Both the position numbers and the translations under genes were made by a program. The notes below the pieces were generated by a model. It searched no databases and was not told the DNA's origin. It worked only from the letters and a program-made list of their open reading frames with translations. From the NCBI GenBank assembly GCA_025929465.1, contig JAICMC010000002.1, forward strand, positions 1 through 43,699: a stretch of DNA of 43,699 nucleotides, written 5' to 3'. This document shows, one piece after another, positions 1,121 to 6,533 of the stretch (positions are counted from its first letter, which is position 1; each line of letters begins with the position of its first letter). This DNA comes from Nostocoides sp. (GTDB lineage Bacteria; Actinomycetota; Actinomycetes; Actinomycetales; Dermatophilaceae).

Positions 1121-1205
1121 AACGCATTTCTGCGCCCCGGCGCAGATCCCGATGACCGCCGCAGAACTGGCTGCGCCGCTCGTCGGCTTCAGCGCCATGG
1201 CGCTC
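1121..1205. repeat. Dispersed palindromic intergenic repeat, copy 1 (REP/BIME-like)
   Basis: Contains the hairpin TCTGCGCC-CC-GGCGCAGA (1129-1146) and the palindrome AGCGCCATGGCGCT (1191-1204). Aligns without gaps to the reverse complement of copy 2 (28768-28869), about three quarters identical by eye over 77 bp. Confidence 0.8.
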
Positions 1206-3750
1206 AACGGTCGGGCGCAGGGGTGAACCGCCACTGGGAACCCATGCAGTGGAAGGCTGCCGCGACGTCGTCGTTCTCGGTGACCGCCATCGCCAGCGCC
1301 TCGTCGGTCGGGCGACCTGCGGCGAGGTGCCGGTGGTGGGCCGTCATGACCTCGCAGGCCACCTCATCGGGGACCGGCGAGACAGCCGCGACGACGGACG
1401 CCGCGCCGAGCGAGAGCATCGACGCGGCGAGGCCGAGCGACTCCTCCCCCGGCCGCACCATCGCCAGACCGACGTCGCACGCGGAGAGGACGACGTGCCG
1501 GGCCCGTATGCCGTGCGGCTGGAACTCGTGGGCGAACACCGGCCCGTCGTCCAGGTCGATGGAGCTGAACAGCGGGCTCTGCGGTTCGTGGGTCCCATGG
1601 GCGGCGACGTGCACGATGTCGGCCTCCGTCACGGCCCGGACCAGGGCGGACGCGGTTGCCGGAGAGTGGAGGTCGACCCGGTCCGGGCCCCAGGTCGCGG
1701 CGAGCGCGGCGGCCTCGTCGTGGGCCCGGCCCAGCCTGGGCCCGACGCTGACCTGGACGGTCGGCCGCCCCGCGCTCTGCCCCGTGCGGCGTGCCCAGCT
1801 CCCCAGCGACCGTGCGATGGTGAGCGGACGGCCGACGAGCGAGGGGGCCAGCGCCCAGGGCAGGCTGCCCAGCTCCCGGCAGGGCAGCAGCACGAGCCCG
1901 CCCTCGGCACGACCCCACGGCCGCAGGACCGCGTCGTCCAGGCGGGCGAGGTCTGCGCGCAGCGAGCTGACCACGGCGGCGCGCAGGGCACCCAGCTGGT
2001 GGGTGCCCATGACGCGCAGGTCGGCGCGCGCCCGTTCAGCGAGCTCGGCGGCCTCCTCCAGCGCCAGCAGGTCACGCAGTCGCGCCCTGCCGGCGCAGAT
2101 GGCGACCCCCATCAGCCGGCCCCCGTGGGGGAAGAGCCACAGTGCCTCACGGTCCGCCGACCGCAGCCGCTCGGTCGCTGTCGAGAGCGTGGCCGCCGAC
2201 CCCGCCTGCCGCGCGTCGGCCCGGGAACCGGCCCAGTCCCGTTCCCGGATCCGGTGCTGCAGCGCGCTCGCCTGGTCCTGCAGGCCCGTCACGACGTCCA
2301 CCGCCGTCTCACGGCGCATCCTGTCCCGGGTCGAGCGCAGCTGCTCGGTCAGCCGTGCCAGCTCCGGGTCGGAGGAGGGACGCACACGCGGTAGCCGGTC
2401 CGTGGCCGACCGCCACCGCTCCAGGCTGGTCAGGGTTGCGTGCGCCCCCCGAGGCAGGGCCAGGTCCAGGTCCAGGTCCGCGAGCCGAACCCCGTGCAGG
2501 GCGGCGGCGGCGCGCAGGTCCAGGCTGGCGCTGCCCTGCTGACCAGCGGCCAGCAACCGGCTCCCTCGCGACAGCAGCCTGCGCGCCTTCGCCGTCTCAC
2601 CCGTCCCGGACAGGACCAGGGCCTGGACCTGGACCCGGTGCAGGTCGCCCTGGAGCGACCGGTTGGGCCGGTGTGCGGGCTCGGTGAGGTGGCGTCCTGC
2701 GGCCGTCCAGTCGCCGCGCCGCGCACAGGTCTCGGCCGCCACGGTGAGGGCCCGGTCGGCCAGGGACGCCGATCCGAGGCGGTCCGCGGTGGCTGCCAGC
2801 TGCTCGGCGTCCGCAGCCATCGCCGGCGTGGCCCGCCCCGAGTCCAGGGCGATCTGGAGCAACAGCAGTCGCGCGTCCGCCTCCCACGCCAGGGCGCCGT
2901 GCCGACGGTAGAGCGCGCGGGCGCGCCGCGCCGCGGCTGCTGCCGCGGCCTGCCGTCCGGACCAGCGATGAACCCTCGCGAAGGACAGCAGGATCTCGGC
3001 ACGGACCCGCCACGCCGTCCTCGGTGCCACCCGCAGGGCGGTGTGCAGGGCCTCGGCCGCCTCGTCGGTCAGGCCGGCGTCGACCAGCACGATGGCGCGG
3101 TCCAGGTCGGGCGAGGTGGGCAGGTCGCCGTGCGCGACCGCGTCGGCCATCCCGGCCAGGGCGGCCGGGATGTCCCCCATGAGGTACGCGGCATACGCGG
3201 CGTCATGCGTGGCGTAGGCCGCCATGGCCCGGTCCCCGATCACCCGCGCGGCCTCGGCGGCTGCGCGGAAGAGCGGCACCGCCTCCGATGGCCGGCCGGC
3301 CTCGGACAGGAGCATCGCCTGGGTCACCTGCACCGCGCACCGCTCCCGGGGTGTGAACGCGGCCAACCCGGCCCCCACCGCCGCCTGGTGGCCGAGGGCG
3401 CCGGTCAGGTCTCCGGCCTGGCCGAGGATGCCGGCGAACTGGAAGTGCCACCTGCTCTCCAGGAGCCCGGCCTCCGGCCCGGCGACACCGTCGATCAGCG
3501 TCCGTGCCTCGGCCAGGACCCGGGTCGCCGGCTCCAGCCCCTGGGTCAGGAACGTCGTCAGAGCCGACGTGATCAGGACGTTGACGCGAGCGGAGCGAAC
3601 CCCGGGCGTCTCGCCCGCACCGGCTGCCGCCCGGTCCAGGACGTCGAGCGCCCTTGCCAGGGACCGGCGTGCCCGGTCCGGTCGCCCGGCGTGGTTGGCT
3701 GCCACCGCCCGCCGCCGCTGGGCCTCGGCCAGCTCCAGGGAGTCCTCGAT
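1204..3750 (-). CDS. TPR-CHAT domain protease-like protein
   Basis: Long helical repeat N-terminus (LAEAQRRRAVAANHAGRPDRARRSLARAL...). C-terminal CHAT caspase-like dyad: HVAAHGTHEPQSPLFSSIDL (His) and VVLSACDVGLA (Cys). Start uncertain: no ATG/GTG next to the GAGGAGG ribosome-binding site; in-frame ATC at 3750 or GTG at 3705. Confidence 0.85.
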   Translation of the reverse strand: MEDSLELAEAQRRRAVAANHAGRPDRARRSLARALDVLDRAAAGAGETPGVRSARVNVLITSALTTFLTQGLEPATRVLAEARTLIDGVAGPEAGLLESRWHFQFAGILGQAGDLTGALGHQAAVGAGLAAFTPRERCAVQVTQAMLLSEAGRPSEAVPLFRAAAEAARVIGDRAMAAYATHDAAYAAYLMGDIPAALAGMADAVAHGDLPTSPDLDRAIVLVDAGLTDEAAEALHTALRVAPRTAWRVRAEILLSFARVHRWSGRQAAAAAAARRARALYRRHGALAWEADARLLLLQIALDSGRATPAMAADAEQLAATADRLGSASLADRALTVAAETCARRGDWTAAGRHLTEPAHRPNRSLQGDLHRVQVQALVLSGTGETAKARRLLSRGSRLLAAGQQGSASLDLRAAAALHGVRLADLDLDLALPRGAHATLTSLERWRSATDRLPRVRPSSDPELARLTEQLRSTRDRMRRETAVDVVTGLQDQASALQHRIRERDWAGSRADARQAGSAATLSTATERLRSADREALWLFPHGGRLMGVAICAGRARLRDLLALEEAAELAERARADLRVMGTHQLGALRAAVVSSLRADLARLDDAVLRPWGRAEGGLVLLPCRELGSLPWALAPSLVGRPLTIARSLGSWARRTGQSAGRPTVQVSVGPRLGRAHDEAAALAATWGPDRVDLHSPATASALVRAVTEADIVHVAAHGTHEPQSPLFSSIDLDDGPVFAHEFQPHGIRARHVVLSACDVGLAMVRPGEESLGLAASMLSLGAASVVAAVSPVPDEVACEVMTAHHRHLAAGRPTDEALAMAVTENDDVAAAFHCMGSQWRFTPAPDR

Positions 3751-3760
3751 CCGGGCCTCC

Positions 3761-4243
3761 TCAGAGCTCGACGCTGGGGGTGATGACCGGGCGCGCGTCC
3801 GGCTCCCCCGGATCCACCCGGACCAGGAAGTGCACCCATCCCCGGGGCAGGCCGTCCACGACGAACCGGCCGTGCTCGTCGGCCGTGACCGAACGGGTGA
3901 GGTCCGCCGTGACGACGTCCACCACGGCCCCACCGCGGGTCACCCAGCCGTCGATCCGCGCGGTCCGCCCGTCATCACCCACCCTCGTGGTCACCATCAG
4001 GCTGACCGTGCCACTGGTGAAGGTGATCGACTCGGTCCGCGTCGCGTCCTTCGCCGATCGGGTCGCCACCATCTCTGCCTGGGTGAGCTCGGCCACCTCG
4101 GCATGGAGGGCATGGACGGTGAGCGCGAACCGGCTCCGCTCGGCCAGGTCGGCCGGCACCGGATCCACCCTGGCCAGCAGCTCGTGCAGCGCTGCGAGGT
4201 TGGCCAGGTCGACCTCGTCGATGGGGTCGGTGTGGGTCGTCAT
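3761..4243 (-). CDS. 160-aa small protein of the CHAT/subtilase operon; candidate sigma regulator or protease substrate
   Basis: ORF MTTHTDPIDEVDLANLAALHELLARVDPVPADLAERSRF...SVEL*. Helical N-terminus and beta-rich C-terminus resembling a carboxypeptidase-regulatory-like domain (TADEHGRFVVDGLPRGWVHFLVRV). ATG lies 1 nt after the sigma-factor stop. Confidence 0.75.
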   Translation of the reverse strand: MTTHTDPIDEVDLANLAALHELLARVDPVPADLAERSRFALTVHALHAEVAELTQAEMVATRSAKDATRTESITFTSGTVSLMVTTRVGDDGRTARIDGWVTRGGAVVDVVTADLTRSVTADEHGRFVVDGLPRGWVHFLVRVDPGEPDARPVITPSVEL

Positions 4244-4244
4244 G

Positions 4245-4826
4245 TCAGGCCTCCCAGGTGGGATCGGTGGCGATGGCCGTGCGCAGCTTCTGCAGGCAGC
4301 GGCCACGGGTCGGGCCGATCGACCCGACCGGCATACCGAGGGACTGCGCGATCGCCGCGTAGTCGGGTCGGTCGGCGAAGGCGACCACCCGCAACAGCTC
4401 CTGGCACCGGGCCGGCAGCGCGGCGACGTGTCGCCACAGCGCCTTCTGGCGCTCCCCGAGGATCGAGACCTGCTCCGGGCCCAGGGCCATGGCCGGCGCC
4501 TCCGGGACCTCCTCGACATCGATCTCGCGCCGCTCGCCACGGACGAGGCGCCACGTCTCGCGTTTGACGGTGATCACCAGCCAGGCGAGCACGGCGAACG
4601 GGTCCAGGATCCGGTCCGCGGAGTCGACCAGGCGCAGCCAGGCCGTCTGGATGGCGTCCTCTGCCGTCGCACCCGAGGCACCTTGGGCCCGGGCGGTGTG
4701 CCACAGCACCGGGGTCAGCAGCTCGACGAGGTCGCCGAGTCGCTGGTGGTCGCCCTCCTGGTAGGCCGCGAAGGCCTGCCCTGCGCGGTACCCCAGGCTC
4801 TCGGACGAGACGGGCCTCGGGTTCAC
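4245..4826 (-). CDS. Sigma-70 family (ECF-type) RNA polymerase sigma factor
   Basis: Region 2-like DAIQTAWLRLVDSADRILDPFAVLAWLVITVKRETWRLVRGE and region 4 HTH LPARCQELLRVVAFADRPDYAAIAQSLGMPVGSIGPTRGRCLQKLR. GTG start overlaps the stop of the upstream subtilase gene. Confidence 0.88.
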   Translation of the reverse strand: MNPRPVSSESLGYRAGQAFAAYQEGDHQRLGDLVELLTPVLWHTARAQGASGATAEDAIQTAWLRLVDSADRILDPFAVLAWLVITVKRETWRLVRGERREIDVEEVPEAPAMALGPEQVSILGERQKALWRHVAALPARCQELLRVVAFADRPDYAAIAQSLGMPVGSIGPTRGRCLQKLRTAIATDPTWEA

Positions 4827-6451
4827 GGCGCCACCTCGGCCAGCCCGGCTCGGGCGCGGTCCGCACGGGCGGCCATGGAACCCTTGTCGACCTGGGCCAG
4901 CAGCTCGTCGGCCGCGAGGCCCCGCGCCGCGTCGGCGGCGACCGCGGGGGTCGAGAACGAGGTTCCGCTCCAGACACTGAAGCCCGAGCCGTAGTCCTCC
5001 GGGTCGATCGTCGAACGCCCACCCGCCATGATGCCGACCCCGACCTGGCTGGCCTGCGCACCGCCGCGGAAGGTGGTCGGCACGGTGCTGACCACCGCGG
5101 CGCCGCACCGCAGGTACCGCACCCAGCTGCCCACGTTGGAGAACAGCGCCGTCGTCCGGCACCCGGGGTTGAGCGCGCCCACGGCGAGCAGGGGGACGGG
5201 CAGGTGCGCCGGGTCAGGGTCCTCGGTGTCGGCGAACGCTGCCGGGTAGAGGGGACGACGCGTCGCGTCGTTGCCCGAACCGGCGCAGACGATCACCTGC
5301 CAGTCGCAGTACCGCTGGAACAGGATCCGGAAGCGGTGCTCCTCGCCGGGGTCGTCGCTGGGGTCCGGGTAGTAGCCCATCGAGACCGACAGCACGTCGA
5401 TCACGTCGTCCGGGTGGTTGTCCAGGACGCCGTTGACGTGCCGGAGCAGCAGCAGCACGAGGGCGGTGTGGACCTCGGTCTCCACGGCGATCCCGTCCCG
5501 GCTCATGACCGGGATGGAGAGGATGGCTGCCTCGGGACACCGTTGCCGCACGATCCCCGCCACGAACGTCCCGTGCCCGGCGAGGGCGCCCAGGGCTCCG
5601 ACCAGCTCGTCGCTGACCCCGTCGCCCAGGTCCTCGTTGGCGCCCCCGATGGGGACTCCCCTGAAGGAGGCGCCGACCTGCACGCTCGGGTCCCCGTCGA
5701 ACCAGGGATGCTCGCCGAGGCCGGTGTCCGGTAGTGCGACGACCGGGCGGCGCTCCCACCGTCGGGCGGGACGGGGCTTGGGCACGGCCAGGTGGACCGG
5801 CATCCGACCGCCGCGCCCGGGTATGCCGTACTCCGCCGGTGTCCCGATACCGGGCCACAGCCCGCCGATCCCCGGCCAGAGTCCCCCGATCCCGGGCCAC
5901 AGCCCACCGATCCCGGGCCACAGGCCCCCGCTGGGGGTGAGCACGTGGTCCAGGGCCAGCCGTGCGGCGGTGTCCGGCGCCACCCTGCGGATGTCGGCCA
6001 GGACCTGCTGGGCGTCGACGGCGTAGCCGGGGTCGGTGGGGACCAGGACGATCCGGGTGACCCACAGCTCGTCGCGCAGCTCGGCCAGCACGCCGGGCAG
6101 GTCCTCCAGAGCGGGCAGCCGGGCGGCGTCGGCCGGGATCTCGGCGCGCAGCGGCAGCCCGGCCTCGGTGATCGCCGCCTGGACCGCGTTGAGCGGCTCC
6201 TCGTCGGCCGTCGCGATGTAGCCGGACCAGACCAGGTGGTCCAGCACGTACAGGCTGGGCGGCGTCGAACCGCCACCGTTCCCGGCCGGTACCGAGCCCA
6301 CCCGCCCGGGTGGGACCCGTCCGCCTCCACCGCCCCGACGCGATCCGTCCAGGTCACGGCCGGCGGCGTTCGTCGCCTCGCCCGCCGTCGACGTCTCGGA
6401 TCCGGCGGACCCCTCCTGCGCAGGTGTGCTCTGGCCGTCCGGCTCATCCAT
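4823..6451 (-). CDS. S8 family subtilisin-like serine peptidase, no evident signal peptide
   Basis: Asp (VVALPDTGLGEHPWF), His (GHGTFVAGIV) and Ser (GTSFSTPAVAA) motifs are present. N-terminus is acidic/Gly-Arg-rich with no hydrophobic signal sequence. Confidence 0.9.
   Translation of the reverse strand: MDEPDGQSTPAQEGSAGSETSTAGEATNAAGRDLDGSRRGGGGGRVPPGRVGSVPAGNGGGSTPPSLYVLDHLVWSGYIATADEEPLNAVQAAITEAGLPLRAEIPADAARLPALEDLPGVLAELRDELWVTRIVLVPTDPGYAVDAQQVLADIRRVAPDTAARLALDHVLTPSGGLWPGIGGLWPGIGGLWPGIGGLWPGIGTPAEYGIPGRGGRMPVHLAVPKPRPARRWERRPVVALPDTGLGEHPWFDGDPSVQVGASFRGVPIGGANEDLGDGVSDELVGALGALAGHGTFVAGIVRQRCPEAAILSIPVMSRDGIAVETEVHTALVLLLLRHVNGVLDNHPDDVIDVLSVSMGYYPDPSDDPGEEHRFRILFQRYCDWQVIVCAGSGNDATRRPLYPAAFADTEDPDPAHLPVPLLAVGALNPGCRTTALFSNVGSWVRYLRCGAAVVSTVPTTFRGGAQASQVGVGIMAGGRSTIDPEDYGSGFSVWSGTSFSTPAVAADAARGLAADELLAQVDKGSMAARADRARAGLAEVAP
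5845..5928 (-). repeat. 21-bp in-frame tandem repeat x4 encoding GGLWPGI
   Basis: Coding-strand translation SGGLWPGIGGLWPGIGGLWPGIGGLWPGIGTP. Plus strand shows repeated ccgatcccgggccacagcc-type units. Confidence 0.9.
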
Positions 6452-6533
6452 GGGGGCTCCTCGTCGCGTTCATCCAGCTGGCCTGCATCCGTCAGGAGGG
6501 CCGTGGGCGAGCCCTGATACATGGTCCCGCGTG

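Follow-up and report, generated by a model that had tools for sequence, protein, structure and literature searches.

How might a sigma factor be controlled when its gene sits among those of two proteases and a small protein? The question is raised by an operon on the 43,699-nucleotide stretch of Nostocoides sp. DNA (contig JAICMC010000002.1) that we analyzed and call the window. Four minus-strand genes are tightly packed here, in the reading order subtilase, ECF sigma factor, 160-aa protein, TPR-CHAT peptidase (Table 1). The TGA of the subtilase gene shares bases with the sigma GTG at 4826 (GTGA), and 1 nt separates the sigma stop from the ATG of the 160-aa gene. These coordinates confirm the packing that a preliminary description of the locus had reported. 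The ordinary start codons nearest in frame for CHAT are GTG 3933, which lies within the preceding gene, and GTG 3705, with no ATG, GTG or TTG in that frame between the two; a possible ATC start codon at 3750 stands at the right distance behind the ribosome site GGAGG. The sigma factor matches the generic ECF model only (TIGR02937). An ARAGORN tRNA call inside the subtilase gene (6250-6337, minus strand) lacks a proper anticodon and is almost certainly spurious. The host genome, 73% complete in 206 contigs, holds a second sigma and small-protein pair on an 8.6-kb contig (C122; L124:355-1402), with a subtilase gene fragment at the contig end; a CHAT gene beside this pair was not found on that contig.

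Table 1. Features of the operon and its upstream region, with positions in the window
Feature	Position	Strand	Basis
GTATCAG-N15-CTCCT, a promoter-like element whose end lies 42 nt ahead of the subtilase ATG; candidate ECF promoter for autoregulation	6494..6520	-	
Subtilase (S8), 542 aa: disordered N-terminus, propeptide-like domain, tandem array, catalytic domain	4823..6451	-	Pfam S8 E=3e-8
Propeptide-like domain (approximate limits), ending LDHVLTPS	5930..6253	-	beta-alpha-beta-beta-alpha-beta order in homologue L132
Perfect 4-copy heptapeptide tandem array GGLWPGIGGLWPGIGGLWPGIGGLWPGIG (GLWPGIG x4), between the propeptide-like domain and the catalytic Asp	5843..5929	-	
ECF sigma factor, 193 aa, GTG start	4245..4826	-	TIGR02937 E=5e-14
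160-aa sigma-partner protein: two-helix N-terminal segment, disordered linker, C-terminal beta-sandwich (weak CarboxypepD_reg similarity)	3761..4243	-	
Arg62 codon of the 160-aa protein; candidate scissile residue (in T-R-S, between R and S)	4058..4060	-	99% Arg in 121 distinct homologues; pLDDT below 50 there in homologue L035
TPR-CHAT cysteine peptidase; start uncertain (ATC 3750 or GTG 3705)	1204..3750	-	PF12770 E=5e-27

The layout has been recorded before, and by genomic context the window very probably holds a new member of the ECF54 group. In the passages of PMC8999054 available to us, which draw on Huang et al. 2015 and Casas-Pastor et al. 2021, the conserved neighbors of ECF54 sigma factors are a ‘carboxypeptidase’, a subtilase and a CHAT protein, and control by proteolysis is put forward as a proposal. 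A sigma factor with subtilase, CHAT and carboxypeptidase-like neighbors is what we find here, although the ‘carboxypeptidase’ is represented solely by a sub-threshold, regulatory-like beta-sandwich in a protein of 160 aa without a catalytic domain; the contexts would match exactly if the two are the same protein. The preliminary description had allowed that an identical operon might already be characterized. This is so to the extent that the ECF54 context is catalogued and its proteolytic control proposed in those passages; an experiment on the operon was not found in the literature searched. Arg62, the promoter and the array are not described in the part of the ECF54 literature that we found, and may stand in the primary ECF54 papers; nor is the operon described in the searched passages of eLife work on bacterial conflict systems.

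Surveys of related genomes show how constant this arrangement is. The small protein is present in 48 of 117 close relatives, and in 103 of 395 genomes sampled across the class and 36 of 398 across the phylum. Neighborhoods were read in a first set of 80 loci of up to 20 kb each, with genes called by a simple codon-position gene finder, and in a second set of 67 loci from named species; contigs were scanned with a closer set of small proteins, the diverse alignment being too variable for the purpose. A sigma gene lies directly upstream of 68 of 79 small-protein genes, which had been collected without regard to sigma, and the junction between the two (first set) is mostly a 4-nt overlap or a 1-nt gap. 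An apparent fusion of the two genes in L132 (8069-9307, minus strand) was rejected, as a frame shift inside sigma puts its first half in the small-protein frame. Both CHAT and subtilase occur in the locus for 59 of the 79 small-protein genes, and the linked protease pair is missing for the other 20 within the stretch read. Gene orders differ (subtilase-sigma-small-CHAT, sigma-small-subtilase-CHAT, and layouts with divergent CHAT and subtilase), and what stays constant next to sigma is the small protein, not one of the protease genes. Judged by these sequence matches, the module is conserved across Actinomycetota. The co-occurrence of the four genes far exceeds chance; they stand together in dozens of genera, which disposes of the possibility, raised in the preliminary description, that relatives would lack such linkage.

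Both active sites are intact. The His-Cys dyad of CHAT (codons 1597-1599 and 1477-1479) is 100% conserved in 108 homologues, and the subtilase keeps its Asp-His-Ser triad and oxyanion Asn, as expected of an active enzyme, in 100% of 93 homologues. The window subtilase has no evident signal peptide, a hydrophobic N-terminus occurs in just 1 of 66 relatives, and neither the small protein nor sigma has a membrane segment. No CRISPR-like repeat array lies within the window, and a RAMP-family protein (gRAMP/Cas7-11) was not found in its 73%-complete genome. The earlier claims of intact catalytic residues, no obvious signal peptide and no CRISPR thus stand.

These features invite comparison with systems in which proteolysis reaches a sigma factor. 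In type III-E Craspase, cutting of Csx30 relieves the inhibition of a sigma factor (PMC10028731, PMC11106740). The operon shares with Craspase, Csx30 and CASP-sigma a TPR-CHAT peptidase, an ECF-like sigma factor and a third protein in one locus, but it has an extra subtilase, and no CRISPR array or RAMP protein was found with it. The preliminary proposal of a CRISPR-independent Craspase therefore holds as an analogy and fails as a claim of membership: the operon may work in the manner of Craspase and Csx30-sigma without belonging to the type. Removal of a sigma partner by proteolysis, as it would occur here, also recalls the membrane anti-sigma systems RseA/RpoE and RsiW/SigW. It differs from them in that the small protein and sigma lack membrane segments and the proteases are soluble and without signal peptides.

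What, then, is the small protein? Domain searches returned sub-threshold matches only, the best of them to a carboxypeptidase regulatory-like domain (E=0.002), and found no enzymatic domain; PDB and Pfam searches gave weak beta-sandwich matches only, and no Csx30-type match was obtained in Pfam, NCBIfam or PADLOC. The protein is no carboxypeptidase. We modeled it with AlphaFold as part of an in-frame sigma and small-protein read-through from locus L035, with the stop read as Gly and an alignment of 38 rows. In the model (mean pLDDT 84, pTM 0.37) two helices lead through a loop with pLDDT below 50 (residues 254-264) into a seven-strand beta-sandwich. Taken singly the domains are well modeled, and the model does not fix how they lie relative to each other, so that the sigma:small arrangement, drawn from a single read-through chain and a shallow, mostly unpaired alignment, is not a confident one. 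The linker is variable in sequence and length save for one Arg, which is Arg62 in the window and is kept in 99% of 121 distinct homologues; the residue that follows is Gly, Ser or Ala in 89% of them.

Going by this alignment and the model, Arg62 looks as expected of a scissile site in a disordered inter-domain linker, and we regard it as a candidate for one; it could alternatively be a structural or binding residue. The preliminary description had offered the 160-aa protein as a protease substrate or an anti-sigma factor. The substrate role gains support because Arg62 is near-invariant in the disordered linker. What argues for the anti-sigma role is the constant place beside sigma; the read-through model, for its part, gave no confident arrangement of the two. 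Arginine at P1 is typical of several peptidases of clan CD, to which CHAT belongs, and since cleavage after Arg is frequent in that clan, TPR-CHAT is the most likely cutter. The putative substrate here has a near-invariant Arg, whereas the cut sites of Csx30 are not conserved between orthologues (L and D, M and K, or A and S flank the cut; PMC10028731, PMC11106740), and an Arg preference of CHAT does not therefore follow from the Craspase precedent.

We give about even weight to the reading that the operon is an ECF54-type cytoplasmic switch gated by proteases, in which a cut in the partner would free sigma for autoactivation and for a hydrolase-rich regulon. Sigma would be produced together with the 160-aa partner, whose N-terminal helices would keep it inactive. 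Some signal would activate the co-encoded peptidases, TPR-CHAT would most likely cut the partner after Arg62 in its disordered linker, and the partner would let go. Once free, sigma would act at GTATCA(G/C)-N15-CTCC(T) promoters to transcribe the operon itself and a small regulon, in which other proteases, caspase/CHAT proteins and hydrolases would be included.

The promoter-like element emerged when the regions ahead of the operons were searched for dyads without supervision: TATCA and TCC blocks at a fixed distance occurred in half of the sequences and in none of the shuffles. Neither it, nor the regulon, nor the tandem array was part of the preliminary description. Of 57 matches to the refined element ahead of the operon in relatives, 51 have a gap of 16 between GTATCA and CTC, and a leading G is present in 26/26 sites although the pattern did not demand it. 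The element is linked to the module. Across the 117 relatives, 67 sites fall in the 35 genomes whose small-protein match is strong (1.9 per genome) and 18 in the 69 genomes with no match (0.26 per genome); a reversed control pattern gave 33 sites over all 117 (0.28 per genome). Among 41 non-operon sites read, only 4 lie inside a predicted gene, and most stand some 40-100 nt upstream of a same-strand start. The genes behind them in relatives encode caspase C14, M6 metalloprotease, A4 peptidase, trypsin, CHAT and Zn-dependent phospholipase C proteins, and a second site in the window's own genome lies ahead of a protein in which the trypsin-like motifs TATHC and GDSGGP occur (L198). Targets vary by species, and about half of those scanned have no informative Pfam match. 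Going by the targets listed, the regulon may be rich in hydrolases. At one locus (L226:2319-7108) two divergently transcribed CHAT-domain proteins, of which one carries a CBM9-like domain at its C-terminus, share an intergenic region with two promoter-like elements, one per direction. In two genera (L220:2085-4403, L228:454-4212) the element is followed by a protein resembling Zn-dependent phospholipase C, and by a similar downstream ORF.

The tandem array in the subtilase is the least explained feature of the operon. An array of this kind occurs in 45 of 66 first-set subtilases, after the N-terminal domain has ended (..LDHV..) and ahead of the catalytic Asp, and the second set adds more. The unit is usually 6-7 residues long, is present in 3-9 copies and differs by lineage: GLWPGIG in the window, and elsewhere GTWGGIG, GYWGGVG, GQFGGIG, GYGDGV, GWGQGV, HPFWGG, NPFTRS, NPAYQG, MPYYVS and others. 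Neighboring units diverge at 45.5% of their synonymous sites and at 0.6% of the nonsynonymous ones (pS 0.455, pN 0.006, the latter biased down because arrays were detected through amino-acid identity), so that the codons vary under a preserved peptide. Given this synonymous divergence, recent duplication does not account for most arrays; recently copied units do occur in some, as in L153. In an AlphaFold model of a subtilase and CHAT-TPR read-through chain from L132, the N-terminal domain has the beta-alpha-beta-beta-alpha-beta order known from subtilisin propeptides, and the array takes on no structure (residues 173-242, pLDDT below 50). PDB matches of the model include pro-Tk-subtilisin and PCSK9, and no propeptide family homologue, Inhibitor_I9 included, was found by sequence in Pfam or PDB searches. 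On the strength of the sequences and the model, the subtilase looks like a zymogen in which a disordered array of identical, species-specific peptides joins the propeptide-like and catalytic domains. It resembles subtilisin-type zymogens in having such a domain ahead of a subtilisin catalytic domain, but differs from them in having no propeptide-family sequence match, an array after the propeptide-like domain and no signal peptide. The array peptides are probably either sites of processing or a recognition ligand in activation; self-processing sites, an intramolecular inhibitor and a CHAT ligand are all conceivable.

It is conceivable, if rather unlikely, that proteolysis is instead the off state, and that the subtilase, CHAT or both degrade sigma in unstressed cells with the 160-aa protein as adaptor or delivery factor. 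A small protein without an enzymatic domain would fit an adaptor, and the scheme is close to the mechanism proposed for ECF54 in the available passages of PMC8999054, yet it leaves unexplained both the near-invariant Arg in the disordered linker of the small protein and why this protein, and not a protease gene, is the constant companion of sigma. A caspase-like TPR-CHAT protein beside a sigma factor, and promoter-like sites ahead of caspase and CHAT genes, might also suggest a module for anti-phage defense or programmed cell death, a CRISPR-independent relative of Craspase. We think this very doubtful. PADLOC returned nothing except a weak BovA match to the CHAT protein, the module is nearly absent from plasmid and phage collections, and the loci lie among recurring, ordinary chromosomal genes (pheA, cysK/cysE) that are often shared within a lineage; a mobile defense island is disfavored because the neighborhoods are chromosomal and made of core genes. 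ECF54 is a catalogued group, and the candidate scissile Arg, the promoter-like element with its protease-containing regulon and the lineage-specific array make the idea of ECF54 proteolysis amenable to point-mutation and reporter tests. If the cut in the partner that we favor is confirmed, caspase-like control of sigma factors would be a widespread, CRISPR-independent bacterial strategy.

One elaboration would add to partner cutting rather than replace it. Identical peptides, whether still attached to the subtilase or set free, might act as a multi-copy ligand that binds the TPR of CHAT and activates this protease, which would set an ordered protease cascade upstream of the sigma partner. The position of the array between the propeptide-like and catalytic domains, a perfect peptide written in differing codons and a unit that varies by genus speak for such a ligand. 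So does a first co-variation analysis, in which unit similarity followed CHAT-TPR divergence given the other modules over 74 loci (partial r 0.21, p 0.003) and showed no correlation with the subtilase's own domains. Permutation within clades reverses this signal: the unit then follows the catalytic domain of the subtilase (r about 0.5, p 0.002), with no such link to CHAT-TPR (p 0.12 to 0.22). The array is, in addition, unstructured in the subtilase and TPR read-through chain. Because the stricter test contradicts the first, we dropped co-evolution of array and CHAT and claim no partner for the array; the ligand itself we consider improbable. It is tempting to speculate further, and at slightly longer odds, that a species-specific signal peptide (units of about 6-10 aa) is built into the interior of the subtilase in multiple copies. 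Processing would expose or free it, the TPR of CHAT would sense it, and CHAT would then cut the sigma partner at Arg62, the whole forming a self-contained intracellular peptide-protease relay that controls the hydrolase-rich regulon. The GLWPGIG unit was not found elsewhere in the available genome of the window. Array homologues are among L031-L070, L124-L163 and L238-L304, and among Terrabacter relatives the copy number of the array varies from about 4 to 7.
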